From Blastococcus saxobsidens (GTDB lineage: Bacteria; Actinomycetota; Actinomycetes; Mycobacteriales; Geodermatophilaceae), in the NCBI RefSeq assembly GCF_010682065.1, contig NZ_JAAGWG010000002.1:124001-188000 (forward strand): 64,000 bases of DNA, read 5' to 3'. Of this stretch, positions 36,082 to 41,442 are shown piece by piece (position 1 is the stretch's first letter; every line of letters begins with the position of its first letter). Both the position numbers and the translations under genes were made by a program. The notes under the pieces were generated by a model. The model was not told where the DNA came from. It saw nothing but the letters and a program-made list of their open reading frames with translations, and did not search any database.

Positions 36082-38070
36082 GTGGACACCGCCGTGACCG
36101 ACCCCGTGGTCGGGCTCGTTCTCGAGGGGCGCTACCGCCTCGAGGAGCGACTCGCGCGCGGCGGCATGTCCACGGTCTACGCCGCCACGGACCTGCGGCT
36201 GCACAAGACCGTCGCGGTCAAGGTCATGGCCGAGCACCTGGCGCACGACCCCACGTTCGTCGACCGGTTCACCCGCGAGGCGCGCGCCGCCGCGATGCTC
36301 AGCCACCCCAACGTCGTCGGCGTGAGCGACCAGGGCAGCGACCAGGGCCTGGTGTTCCTGGTCATGGAGCTGGTCCGCGGCCGCACGCTGCGCGACCTGC
36401 TCAGCGCCCGCGGGCGGCTGACCGTCGCCGAGGCGTTCGCCGTGCTCGAGCCGGTGCTCGCCGGGCTCACCGCTGCCCACCGGGCCGGCATCGTGCACCG
36501 CGACATCAAGCCCGAGAACGTGCTGATCGGCGTCGACGGCGTGGTCAAGGTGGCCGACTTCGGCCTGGCCCGCGCCGTCGTCGGCACCGGGCAGACCAGC
36601 CAGACCGGCGGCGTGCTCATCGGCACGGTCGCCTACCTCTCCCCCGAGCAGCTCGAGCGGGGCCGGGCCGACGCGCGCAGCGACATCTACGCCGCCGGGA
36701 TCGTGCTGTTCGAGATGCTCACCGGCCACCCGCCCTTCGGTGGCGACACCCCGCTGGCCGTGGCCTACCAGCACGTCCACCACGACGTCCCGGCGCCGTC
36801 CACCGAGGTCCCCGGCCTGCCGTGGCAGGTCGACGAGCTGGTCGCCCGCACCACCCGGCGGGACCCGGCCGGGCGCCCGATCGACGCCGGGGGCTTCCTG
36901 GCCGAGATGAACGACCTCCGCAAGGACCTCGGCATCGACCCGGTGCCCGTGCCGACCGGCCACAGCAGCGCGGGCCCGGACACCCTGCGGCCCACCAACC
37001 GGCCGACCCGCCCCCGCCCCTCCGACCGGCACCCCAGTGACCCCGGCACCGCGGTGGTCGGCGGACGGTCCGCGCGCGGCGGGCGCACCAGCATGCTGCC
37101 CGGCATGGGGGCCGGCCCGACCACCGACGTGCACGGCCGCCGTCCCCAGCCCGCCCGCCCGCGCCCCGGCGTCCCGGACCACATCCGGCGCCGCCGCGCA
37201 CGGCTGGTCGTCGCCGTCATCGCGCTGATGGCGATCACCGTCGGCGCCGTCGGCTGGTGGCTGGGCATGGGCCGCTGGACCGACGTGCCCGCCCTGGCCG
37301 GCAAGCAGCAGGACGCCGCCATCGACCTGCTGCAGGGCGCCGGCCTCGACCCGGACCCGGTCGTCGCGGAGTGGAGCGAGACCGTCCCCGAGGATGAGGT
37401 CATCTCCACCGACCCCTCCTCCGGCGAGGTCATCCGCGGCACCGACGTGCGCGTCGTGGTGTCCAAGGGCCCCGAGCGCTACGAGGTCGCCCCCGACCTC
37501 GTCGGCAAGCCGGTCGAGGAGGTCGAGGCGGCCCTGGAGAACCTGCCCGTGCAGGTCACCCGGGCCGAGGACTACGACGACGACCTGCCCCCGGGAGCGG
37601 TCATCCGCTTCGACCCGGCCGCCGGCACCCCGCTCAAGCGCGACCAGGTGGTCACCGTCGTGGTCAGCCAGGGCCGGGCCCCGGTCGCGGTGCCCGACGT
37701 GACCGGCCAGCAGCCCGACCAGGCGACCGCAAACCTGCAGGCGCTCGGCTTCACCGTCGAGCGGATCGAGGACGGCCGCAGCGACACCGTCGACAAGGGC
37801 GAGGTCATGGCCGTCGACCCGGCGCCGTCGGCCGGGCCGGTCCGCTTCGGCAGCGTCGTCCGGATCCAGGTGTCGGCGGGCATCCCGCTGGTCACCGTCC
37901 CCGACGTGCGGGGCAAGACCGGTGACGAGGCCACCCAGATCCTTGAGGCGGCCGGACTCCGGGTGGAGGCCACCCGCTTCTTCGGCAACAGCGTGCTGCG
38001 CCAGAGCCCCGCCGGGGGCGAGACCGTCGAGCGGGGCACGCCGGTCACGATCCTGCTCAGCTTCGGATAG
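36082..38070 (+). CDS. Membrane Ser/Thr protein kinase with four PASTA repeats (PknL/PknB type)
   Basis: 662 residues from GTG 36082. An N-terminal Hanks-type kinase domain covers about 12-280: glycine loop ARGGMSTVYAA, VAVKVMAE, catalytic HRDIKPENVLI, DFGLARA and SPEQL. A Pro-rich juxtamembrane linker follows. One helix spans about 374-396 (LVVAVIALMAITVGAVGWW). Four extracellular PASTA domains begin at PALAGK, PDLVGK, PDVTGQ and PDVRGK. PASTA domains bind peptidoglycan fragments or lipid II, so it probably senses cell-wall state. The Rv2175c-like gene nearby is a candidate substrate by analogy with PknL. Confidence 0.92.
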   Translation: MDTAVTDPVVGLVLEGRYRLEERLARGGMSTVYAATDLRLHKTVAVKVMAEHLAHDPTFVDRFTREARAAAMLSHPNVVGVSDQGSDQGLVFLVMELVRGRTLRDLLSARGRLTVAEAFAVLEPVLAGLTAAHRAGIVHRDIKPENVLIGVDGVVKVADFGLARAVVGTGQTSQTGGVLIGTVAYLSPEQLERGRADARSDIYAAGIVLFEMLTGHPPFGGDTPLAVAYQHVHHDVPAPSTEVPGLPWQVDELVARTTRRDPAGRPIDAGGFLAEMNDLRKDLGIDPVPVPTGHSSAGPDTLRPTNRPTRPRPSDRHPSDPGTAVVGGRSARGGRTSMLPGMGAGPTTDVHGRRPQPARPRPGVPDHIRRRRARLVVAVIALMAITVGAVGWWLGMGRWTDVPALAGKQQDAAIDLLQGAGLDPDPVVAEWSETVPEDEVISTDPSSGEVIRGTDVRVVVSKGPERYEVAPDLVGKPVEEVEAALENLPVQVTRAEDYDDDLPPGAVIRFDPAAGTPLKRDQVVTVVVSQGRAPVAVPDVTGQQPDQATANLQALGFTVERIEDGRSDTVDKGEVMAVDPAPSAGPVRFGSVVRIQVSAGIPLVTVPDVRGKTGDEATQILEAAGLRVEATRFFGNSVLRQSPAGGETVERGTPVTILLSFG

Positions 38071-38083
38071 GCCGCGCCCGCTC

Positions 38084-39013
38084 GTGTCGAACACCTCCCC
38101 CGGTGTGCCGCCCGTCGGCGCGCACATCCAGATCAAGGGCGGCCTGGCCAAGGGCGGGCTCGCCTACACCGATGCCGTCGCCGCCCGCGCCGTGCAGGTC
38201 TTCGTCGGCAACCCGCGCGGGTGGAAGCTCACCGACGGGGACCCGGCCCAGGACGCGCTGTTCACCGCCGGCTGCGCCGACCGGGGCGTGCCGTCGTTCA
38301 TCCACACGCCCTTCCTGGTGAACGTCGGCTCCCCCACCGAGGCCACGGTCGAGCAGTCGATCGCCTCCATCGCCCACAACCTCCGCCGGGGGGCGCAGCT
38401 GGGCTGCCGGGGCGTGGTCGTGCACGCGGGCTCCGCGGTGGGTGAGGACCGCTACGCGGACGCGCTCCGCCAGCTGCACGAGCGGCTGCTGCCGGTCCTG
38501 GAGGCGGCCGACCCGAACGGGCCGCGGCTGCTGATCGAGCCGACCGCCGGCGGCGGCAGGGCCCTCGCGGCCACCGTCGAGGACCTCGGCCCCTACTTCG
38601 CCGCACTGGAGCACCACCCGCTTCTCGGGGTCTGCTTCGACACCTGCCACGCCTGGGCGGCGGGGCACGACCTCTCCGTCCCGGGCGGCATGACGGCGAC
38701 CCTGGACGTCCTGGAGGCGACGGTCGGGCCGGGACGGCTCGGGCTGGTGCACGTCAACGACTCGCTCGACGCGTGCGGCTCCAAGCGCGACCGGCACACC
38801 ACCATCGGCGCGGGCACCATCGGTTCGGGCCCCTACGGCACCGGCCCGTTCGCGGAGCTGCTGCGGCACCGCACGACGGCGGACGTGCCGATGGTCGTGG
38901 AGACGCCGAGCGAGCGCGACGGCCACCCCTCCGCCGGGCATGCGGCCGACATCGCCCTGCTGCGCTCGCTGCGGGACGAGGTGCCGGGGACCGCTGAGGC
39001 CCCCGCCGCCTAG
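38084..39013 (+). CDS. nfo: Deoxyribonuclease IV (AP endonuclease family 2)
   Basis: 309 residues from GTG 38084. Endonuclease IV cleaves the backbone 5' to abasic sites in base-excision repair. Metal ligands lie in the family signatures FIHTPFLVN, VVHAGSAVG, IEPTAGGG, GVCFDTCHAWAAGHD, HVNDSLDACGSKRDRHTTIGAG and VETPSE. The start is weakly supported, with no clear ribosome-binding site. The TAG stop (39011-39013) lies inside the 6-bp target duplication of the adjacent insertion sequence, so the insertion left the reading frame intact. Confidence 0.9.
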   Translation: MSNTSPGVPPVGAHIQIKGGLAKGGLAYTDAVAARAVQVFVGNPRGWKLTDGDPAQDALFTAGCADRGVPSFIHTPFLVNVGSPTEATVEQSIASIAHNLRRGAQLGCRGVVVHAGSAVGEDRYADALRQLHERLLPVLEAADPNGPRLLIEPTAGGGRALAATVEDLGPYFAALEHHPLLGVCFDTCHAWAAGHDLSVPGGMTATLDVLEATVGPGRLGLVHVNDSLDACGSKRDRHTTIGAGTIGSGPYGTGPFAELLRHRTTADVPMVVETPSERDGHPSAGHAADIALLRSLRDEVPGTAEAPAA

Positions 39014-39014
39014 C
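39009..39014. repeat. Left target-site duplication CCTAGC of the IS481-family element
   Basis: CCTAGC immediately precedes the left inverted repeat, and the same six bases follow the right end at 40128-40133. They fit the NCTAGN target known for IS481. Confidence 0.9.
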
Positions 39015-40008
39015 TGTACTGCTCGGTGACGTTGGTGCAGCGGGTGATCGGTGGGAGGTTGCCCAGGGCGGTGTGGGGCCGGTGGTGGTTGTAGTGGTGC
39101 AGCCAGCCTGACAGGGCCGCTCGCCGGTTGGTCTCAGAGGTGAAGAGCCGGCGGTAGGCCCACTCCTCCAGCAGGGTGCGGTTGAGTCGTTCGACCTTGC
39201 CATTGGTCTGCGGGCGGCGGACCCGAGTTCGGGAGTGCTTGATGCCCAGGGCGGCGTGTTCATCGCGCCAGGCGTGGCTCTTGTAGGCGCTGCCGTTGTC
39301 GGTGAGCACACGCTCGACGGTGATCCCGTGGCTGGCGAAGAAGGTCCGGGCTCGGGTCCAGAAGGCCAGCGCGGTGGCGGCGGTCTCGTCGTCGAGGGCT
39401 TCGGAGTAGGCCAGCCGGGAGTAGGCGTCGACGGCGGAGTGGACGTAGCAGTAGCCCAGGTTCGGCCGGCCGGAGACTTTCCGCGGCCGCGCGGGGTCCT
39501 GATGGATCTGGCTGTTGCGTTTGCCCTGGTCTCGGCCGTGGGCGCGCCAGCCGCCGCCGTCGGGGATGTTGCCCAGCTTCTTGATGTCGATGTGCACCAG
39601 CTCGCCGGGGCGGGTCATCTCGTAGCGGCGGATCGGTTCGCCGGTGGCCCGGTCGACGTGCCAGAGCCGGTTGATCCGGCAGCTGGTCAGCACTCGGTGC
39701 ACCGTCGAAGGCGCGCACCCGACCTTGCCGGCGATCGCCACCGGGCCCAGCCGCTGCTTCCACCGCAGGTGCACGATCTTCCGCACCACCGGCTGCGGAG
39801 TTCTCCGCGGCGAGTGCGCGGGCCGGCTGGACCGGTCGACCATCCCCGCCGGGCCGGCCTGCCGATAGCGGGTCGCCCAGCGGGTCGCCGTTGGCCGGGA
39901 CACCTGGAACCGCTCCGCTGCTCGGGCGATCGGCCAGCCGTCCTCGACGATGCAGCGGGCCAATCGAAGTCGGCCGGTCTCAGTCAACGGCGCATTACGG
40001 TGGACCAC
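39010..40008 (-). CDS. IS481-family transposase
   Basis: 332 residues from GTG 40008, with AGGAGGT five bases upstream. An N-terminal helix-turn-helix pair (RAAERFQVSRPTATRWATRY and VAIAGKVGCAPSTVHRVL) binds the ends. The rve catalytic core follows with DDE residues in VHIDIKKLG, VLTDNGSAY and QTNGKVERLNRTLLEEW. The last codon is split by the IS end, and the TAG stop (39010-39012) lies wholly in the flanking target duplication. The element itself therefore encodes no stop in this frame. The gene appears intact. Confidence 0.93.
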   Translation of the reverse strand: MVHRNAPLTETGRLRLARCIVEDGWPIARAAERFQVSRPTATRWATRYRQAGPAGMVDRSSRPAHSPRRTPQPVVRKIVHLRWKQRLGPVAIAGKVGCAPSTVHRVLTSCRINRLWHVDRATGEPIRRYEMTRPGELVHIDIKKLGNIPDGGGWRAHGRDQGKRNSQIHQDPARPRKVSGRPNLGYCYVHSAVDAYSRLAYSEALDDETAATALAFWTRARTFFASHGITVERVLTDNGSAYKSHAWRDEHAALGIKHSRTRVRRPQTNGKVERLNRTLLEEWAYRRLFTSETNRRAALSGWLHHYNHHRPHTALGNLPPITRCTNVTEQYS

Positions 40009-40127
40009 GAGGGACCTCCTGGGTCTGTGCGGGTGCTTGGCGGCTCCCACACCCAACCCGGAGGTCCCTCCTCACATCAAGATCAGCTGCTCACCGCAGC
40101 ACTGCACCAACCTGTCCGGGCAGTACA
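39015..40127. mobile_element. IS481-family insertion sequence, 1113 bp, intact ends
   Basis: Terminal inverted repeats 39015-39040 and 40102-40127 match at 22 of 26 positions and begin TGTACTGC at each outer end. A 6-bp direct repeat CCTAGC flanks them. One transposase gene on the minus strand fills the element. Exact ends and an intact target duplication suggest a fairly recent insertion. It lies between nfo and a subtilase gene, 148 bases upstream of the latter's start. Confidence 0.93.
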
Positions 40128-40133
40128 CCTAGC
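40128..40133. repeat. Right target-site duplication CCTAGC of the IS481-family element
   Basis: Second copy of CCTAGC, directly after the right inverted repeat. Confidence 0.9.
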
Positions 40134-40275
40134 CCGCGACACGCCCGGCGGAGGGCGCCGCGCCGCGCCGACCTGCGTATCGATTCCAGGGGGTTCCGTT
40201 CCGCCTGTCCGTGGGCTTCACTCTGCGCACCCGCGCCGCTGCAGAGAGCGGCCGTCCGGTGACCGAGGAGTACCT

Positions 40276-41442
40276 GTGCAGATCCGAAAGACCCTCGCCG
40301 GCGTGGCAGTCGCCGTCGTCGCATCCTCCGGCGTCGGCGCCACCGCCGGAACCGCGGCGGCCGCCCCGCCGCCCGCGTCCGACGTCGCCACCTACATCGT
40401 CACCCTCCAGCCGGGCAGCACCCCCGGCCCGGTCGCCGAGCGGGCCGCTCGGATGGGTGGCAGCGTCCGGCACCTCTACACCGCGGCCCTGGACGGATTC
40501 GCGGTCCGCCTGCCCACCGCCCTGGCCGAGCGGCTCGCCTCGCTCCCGGGCGTCGTCGCCGTGGAGCGCGACGCCCCGGTCACCCTGGCCGCCACCCAGA
40601 CCTCGGCCACCTGGGGGCTGGACCGCATCGACCAGCGCGCACTGCCGCTGAGCGGCAGCTTCACCTACGGCGCCACCGGCGCCGGGGTCACCGCCTACGT
40701 GATCGACACCGGCATCCGGCTGGACCACGCCGACTTCGGTGGCCGGGCCGTCACCGGCTACGACGCCGTCGACGGCGGCAGCGCCGACGACTGCAACGGG
40801 CACGGCACCCACGTCGCCGGCACCGTGGGCGGGGCCACCCTGGGCGTGGCCAAGGCGGCCTCGCTCGTCGCCGTCCGGGTGCTGGACTGCGCCGGCTCCG
40901 GGACGAACGCCGGCGTCATCGCGGGCATCGACTGGGTGACCGCCCACCACCAGCCGGGACGGCCCGCGGTGGCCAACATGAGCCTCGGCGGCGGCGCCAG
41001 CAGCGCGGTGGACAGCGCCGTGCAGCGCTCGATCGCCGACGGCGTCACCTACGCCGTGGCCGCGGGCAACGGCAACGCCTCGGGCGTTCCGCAGAACGCC
41101 TGCAACTCCTCGCCGGCCAGGGTCTCGGCCGCGCTGACCGTGGGGGCCTCGGACCGCACCGACCGGCCCGCCTCCTTCAGCAACTACGGAAGCTGCGTGG
41201 ACCTGTTCGCCCCTGGAGTCTCCATCACCAGCGACTGGCACACCGGCGCGACGGCGACGAACACGATCAGCGGCACGTCCATGGCGACGCCGCACGTCGC
41301 GGGCGTGGCCGCGCTGTACCTGCAGGGCGCCCCGACCGCGTCCCCGGCCACGGTGGCCACGGCCATCCGGGCGGGGACGACGAAGAACGCCGTCCCGACC
41401 AACCGCACGGCGAACAACGACCTGCTGTTCAGTACCTACTGA
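40276..41442 (+). CDS. Secreted S8 (subtilisin-like) serine protease
   Basis: 388 residues from GTG 40276, with GAGGAG six bases upstream. A signal peptide ([27 protein letters not shown]) precedes an inhibitor I9 propeptide (about 38-108). The peptidase S8 domain holds the triad Asp144 (VIDTGI), His176 (HGTHVAG) and Ser335 ([11 protein letters not shown]). The oxyanion Asn lies in the AAGNGN region. It resembles extracellular proteinase K/aqualysin-type enzymes without C-terminal extras. The IS ends 148 bases upstream, so its native promoter may have been displaced or replaced. Confidence 0.93.

Follow-up and report, generated by a model that had tools for sequence, protein, structure and literature searches.

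A target-supplied stop codon ends the transposase frame of an IS481-family insertion sequence next to nfo in Blastococcus saxobsidens

How does a transposase gene end when the insertion sequence that carries it contains no stop codon for its frame, and how does a neighboring host gene remain intact when the element lies directly behind its last codon? Both questions are raised by an IS481-family element located at the 3' end of the nfo gene for deoxyribonuclease IV in Blastococcus saxobsidens, which we analyzed in a window of 64,000 nucleotides (positions 124,001 to 188,000 of contig NZ_JAAGWG010000002.1) and compared with related elements. The element almost certainly represents a type of IS481-family insertion sequence that prefers and duplicates a palindromic NCTAGN target and whose transposase frame is stopped by the TAG of that target; its anatomy, the phase of its frame, the duplication and the conservation of the arrangement among relatives were all observed directly.

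The terminal inverted repeats of the element, with TGT at the start and ACA at the end as in the IS481 family, are identical at 22 of 26 positions in an alignment of both ends, and the element is flanked by two copies of CCTAGC (Table 1). The 3' end of the transposase gene, read directly on the minus strand, is GAG CAG TAC A|GC TAG. The A of the border codon is the last base of the element (39015), its GC comes from the duplication, and the TAG that follows (39012-39010) consists entirely of target sequence; the transposase frame has no stop codon anywhere inside the element. Direct reading showed the preliminary description to be exact to the base in the extent of the element, its repeats and its duplication, and confirmed that the transposase has no stop of its own, that its AGC codon is split across the border and that its TAG belongs to the duplication. 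Since CTAG is palindromic, TAG can be read on both strands, and the same CTAG also ends nfo, as had been claimed, the 3' end of which reads GCC GCC TAG on the plus strand. The two genes are thus convergent, with a stop in common and zero spacer (39010-39013).

Table 1. Coordinates of the features at the nfo-transposase junction, numbered along the window.
Feature	Position	Strand	Basis and remarks
nfo, deoxyribonuclease IV, 309 aa	38084..39013	+	GTG start chosen by script; PF01261
nfo TAG stop	39011..39013	+	sequence; two-base overlap with the transposase stop on the opposite strand
Target duplication CCTAGC, left copy	39009..39014	.	sequence; contains the nfo stop (+) and the transposase stop (-)
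Transposase, 332 aa from likely GTG	39010..40008	-	start by eye, sequence
Transposase TAG stop, entirely within the target duplication	39010..39012	-	sequence
IS481-family insertion sequence, 1,113 bp	39015..40127	-	ends, inverted repeats, target duplication; NF033577
Inverted repeat, transposase 3' end	39015..39040	+	alignment; last transposase codons run through the repeat
Inverted repeat, transposase 5' end	40102..40127	-	alignment
Target duplication CCTAGC, right copy	40128..40133	.	sequence

The transposase scores 339.1 bits against the family model NF033577 (transpos_IS481; cut-off 224) and contains the LZ_Tnp_IS481 and rve domains. Its DDE triad, located by motifs that we take to be those of the family, falls at residues 157, 253 and 289 (348-aa reading), so that 35 residues separate the second Asp from the Glu. 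This 348-aa reading corresponds to the listed open reading frame, which opens with a TTG at 40056. The TTG is probably too early, and the GTG at 40008, picked by eye, is the probable start, as it is preceded by AGGAGG (40015-40020) with a 6-base spacer and yields a protein of 332 aa. The listed open frame of nfo begins at 37922, upstream of the GTG start used in Table 1, and this longer frame matches the deoxyribonuclease IV model TIGR00587 with 166.5 bits (cut-off 129.65).

The following scenario almost certainly accounts for this arrangement. The transposase prefers a palindromic NCTAGN target and copies it at both ends of the element. Its frame crosses the element's own terminal repeat with one element base remaining for the last codon, and in this conserved phase the border reads ANC TAG. 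The first base of the target affects nothing but the final residue (Ser, Thr, Ile or Asn), and ribosomes presumably terminate at the TAG that follows. An internal stop presumably remains missing as the target nearly always supplies one. A host gene that already ends in CTAG keeps its stop, because the target is duplicated at both ends. At nfo, where the insertion had been proposed to be harmless, the duplication preserves the stop.

The target-stop arrangement was followed among relatives identified by a protein search of genome contigs, where the best 80 of 481 relatives and 30 loci of the genus made up 110 loci, 96 of them with the transposase C-terminus (the window's copy included). Among these, an NCTAGN flank supplies the terminating TAG at 77 loci, and three have a different stop in that position (ACTAAC, GTTAGT and TCTAAC); nine loci have the contig end in or at the flank, two show no stop there (a run of N in one, GCTTAG on the right of locus L063 in the other), and the ends of five were not placed. 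When repeats were dropped, the same classes held 74, 2, 5, 2 and 5 of 88 loci, again with the window's copy. Inspection of the five unplaced loci by eye showed that L067 ends on TCTAGC and L023 on CTTAGC, whereas L026, L059 and L099 stayed unplaced. In many loci a single internal stop was flagged upstream of the likely start, close to query residue 7 or 12; the one in L026 lies near query residue 272. The first target base determines the last residue of the 77 transposases terminated by NCTAGN, which is Ser in 31, Thr in 24, Ile in 14 and Asn in 8.

Further copies were available as 37 stretches from ten genomes, and in all 36 with found ends, of which nine occupy nine sites of a single genome, the frame is ended by the flank TAG two bases out. 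A wider set contained 78 elements with clean ends among 133 distinct loci (several of the other 55 lie at contig breaks); some loci of the 36-copy set also belong to this wider set. According to script calls, 73 of the 78 stop inside the duplication and five have their own stop. It should be noted that one of the five calls (L007) resulted from the use of a part of a frameshifted gene, and the window query puts its C-terminus on the TAG of the duplication.

The true own-stop elements thus comprise four of the 78 (L157, L160, L251 and L192, with L007 set aside). Phase 0, in which NCT AGN yields no stop, is found in three of them (L157, L160 and L192). An internal TGA lies within the terminal repeat of L157 and L160, at a distance of 15 bases from the end. 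The flanks of L160 read GGTAGC, and the target of L157 is TCTAGT, its own stop notwithstanding. L251, in phase 1, carries an additional TAG within its repeat, and L192, with 22% identity a distant relative, has a 7-bp duplication, CTTTATT. Targets with the off-consensus cores CTAA, TTAG and TTAA still put a stop at the same place, namely ACTAAC, TCTAAC and GTTAGT in the 96-locus set and GTTAGC and GTTAAC in the clean-ended set; the other off-consensus duplications, GGTAGC and CTTTATT, occur with own-stop elements. The target-supplied stop is therefore found in nearly all relatives with placed ends, but it is not absolute; the interpretation offered in the preliminary description holds for the most part. 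The expectation that every relative would be flanked by NCTAGN and end its frame there stands for 77 of 96 loci and 36 of 36 copies and fails for the four own-stop elements of 78 and a few non-CTAG targets: internal stops (L157, L160, L251, L192) and sites other than CTAG (CTAA, TTAG, TTAA, GTAG, CTTTATT), which the preliminary description had named as refuting cases, do occur, as exceptions.

At the right end of an IS481-like element on a Rhodococcus plasmid (L188), the target GTTAAC gives the transposase the stop TAA at the same place, which extends the rule beyond TAG. More speculatively, the target might carry a dual code, in which any YTAR core (CTAG, CTAA, TTAG or TTAA) would be tolerated and its half-site TAR would always be a stop in the conserved phase. 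Recognition and phase would then co-evolve, out-of-phase lineages would have their own stop, and in GC-rich hosts, with few CTAG sites inside genes, the motif would steer insertions to gene ends and, being duplicated, leave the host stop intact. We consider this extension possible but rather doubtful. Neither the phase rule nor the YTAR reading is stated in the passages of the literature that were searched, which is no proof of their being unpublished.

Why the internal stop is missing can be read in different ways. Quite probably, CTAG is targeted for DNA recognition only, so that an internal stop is superfluous and nothing is regulated: target preference and phase alone yield the rule, and a CTAG could not have ended the frame in three of the four own-stop elements, given their phase 0. 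This reading is compatible with the explanation preferred here and concerns the reason why the trait persists. Alternatively, a properly ended transposase might be made only from sites that give a stop, so that off-target insertions would be penalized. Consistent with such coupling, loss of the target TAG would extend the frame by a median of 66.5 codons (between 2 and 642 at 76 loci, with repeats counted) and by 59 codons in the window's element, and passages of PMC4803752 suggest that activity may be lower in an ISRme5 copy whose C-terminus is longer. However, the own-stop relatives likewise show clean ends and duplications, and we regard coupling as unlikely. We think that the missing internal stop mostly reflects redundancy rather than regulation.

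A stop that falls in the flank of this single copy merely by chance would agree with the fact that just one copy of the element was found in the B. saxobsidens genome (assembly 91% complete, 77 contigs). This reading is refuted by the relatives, in which the flank TAG likewise ends the frame at 74 of 88 distinct loci and in all 36 copies whose ends were found, and chance is left with practically no probability. An NCTAGN-duplicating element with a target-supplied stop, as proposed above, illustrates clearly how a mobile element can rely on host sequence to end its gene. For annotators, it means that such transposases end outside the element, with a last residue that varies with the site.

A transposase stop supplied by the target is an established phenomenon rather than a new one, and what is added here are the counts, the CTAG depletion and the figures for host stops. 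IS870 is a member of an IS family other than IS481. The title of a 1993 article on it, cited in PMC6471742, states that its large ORF depends on a CTAG target for its stop codon. Within the IS481 family, passages of PMC2516522 (2008) describe ISLxc2 and ISLxx4 from Leifsonia xyli, a host different from ours, with the transposase stop within the host insertion site and an NCTAGN duplication. ISLxc2 (1,105 bp) resembles the window's element in its transposase of 332 aa but, unlike it, carries an additional in-frame stop near the beginning of the gene. In Rhodococcus equi (2019), ISRe46 and TnRErm46 duplicate NCTAGN, and according to passages of PMC6794481 the CTAG gives TAG both to the ISRe46 transposase and to some target genes, such as parB, which are left uninterrupted; TnRErm46 is a 6.9-kb transposon with cargo genes, whereas the window's element is a bare insertion sequence. 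The latter shares the features of the ISLxc2/ISRe46 type, that is, a 6-bp NCTAGN duplication, no internal stop and the TAG of the duplication in frame. ISRme5 of Cupriavidus metallidurans (2016) and other IS481 members likewise have no internal stop, as described in passages of PMC4803752, but the ISRme5 copies end at varied lengths, from 321 to 463 aa, unlike the window's element. Finally, the preliminary description had noted that IS481 of Bordetella targets NCTAGN, in accordance with the consensus target given for B. pertussis in a passage of PMC3053399, which also reports an insertion at CCTAAC; our element shares this target.

The nfo gene is present in all 23 genomes of the genus, and only in the window's genome is it followed by CTAG and then the element. 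In the 22 others, nfo stops with TGA, and no TGTACTG element end occurs within the next 20 bases. When the joined flanks of the element were compared with six of these 22 empty nfo loci, four (L112, L113, L115 and L116) aligned clearly across the junction, with the alignments centered around gcgacacgcccgg, and two (L121 and L124) aligned poorly. The empty loci and these alignments indicate that the element was inserted at the end of nfo in the window's lineage. Empty sites for the suggested comparison came from other genomes of the genus, with the TGA stop at all 22 loci, and no conspecific empty nfo site with CTAG was found. The stop of nfo was presumably already TAG before the insertion, because the two duplications are identical.

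CTAG was counted in 359,918 bases of the window's genome (loci L136-L150 and L152-L154), where 67 sites were observed versus 858 expected from base composition, i.e., the tetranucleotide is about 13-fold rarer. With a retrained gene caller, 18 of the 67 sites were assigned to gene stops, 39 to intergenic regions and 10 (15%) to the inside of genes, and called genes cover 90.9% of the sampled bases. Complete flanks were available for 47 distinct insertions, of which 21 coincide with the stop of a host gene, 25 fall between genes and one is inside a gene; control CTAG sites of the window's genome under the same treatment gave 15, 32 and 10, respectively (n = 57). The stop class is not clearly higher among the insertions than in the control (Fisher p 0.063). 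The inside-gene class is lower among the insertions (Fisher p 0.011), a comparison between one control genome and insertions from many genomes in which weaker gene calling elsewhere would also shrink this class; the caller was trained on the window's genome, and some genes of other actinobacteria may escape it. A Pfam domain was found in 17 of the 21 host genes whose stop lies in the target, including nfo, a part of pyruvate dehydrogenase E1, a 2-oxoacid dehydrogenase acyltransferase, NrdR and a UvrD-type helicase, and in the other four there was none. The simplest reading is that CTAG targeting by itself already avoids genes, and harmful insertions may be lost in addition. Because CTAG is rare inside genes and is duplicated at both ends, a gene ending there stays whole, which makes a palindromic, stop-containing target gentle on a GC-rich host.

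Several minor observations concern the element and its copies. No promoter-like or terminator-like sites were found in the region 38800-40400 by a scan with the sigma-70 consensus, which may not suit this organism. Circle or tandem junctions were sought in 296 genomes with the pattern CAGTACA N0-24 TGTACTG, which fits exactly those end letters only and whose reversed control also matched in some genomes; none of the listed matches, from seven genomes, has a 6-base NCTAGN spacer. At three loci (L278, L287 and L288), both flanks hold CTAG and their outer bases differ, a mismatch that could stem from recombination between copies.
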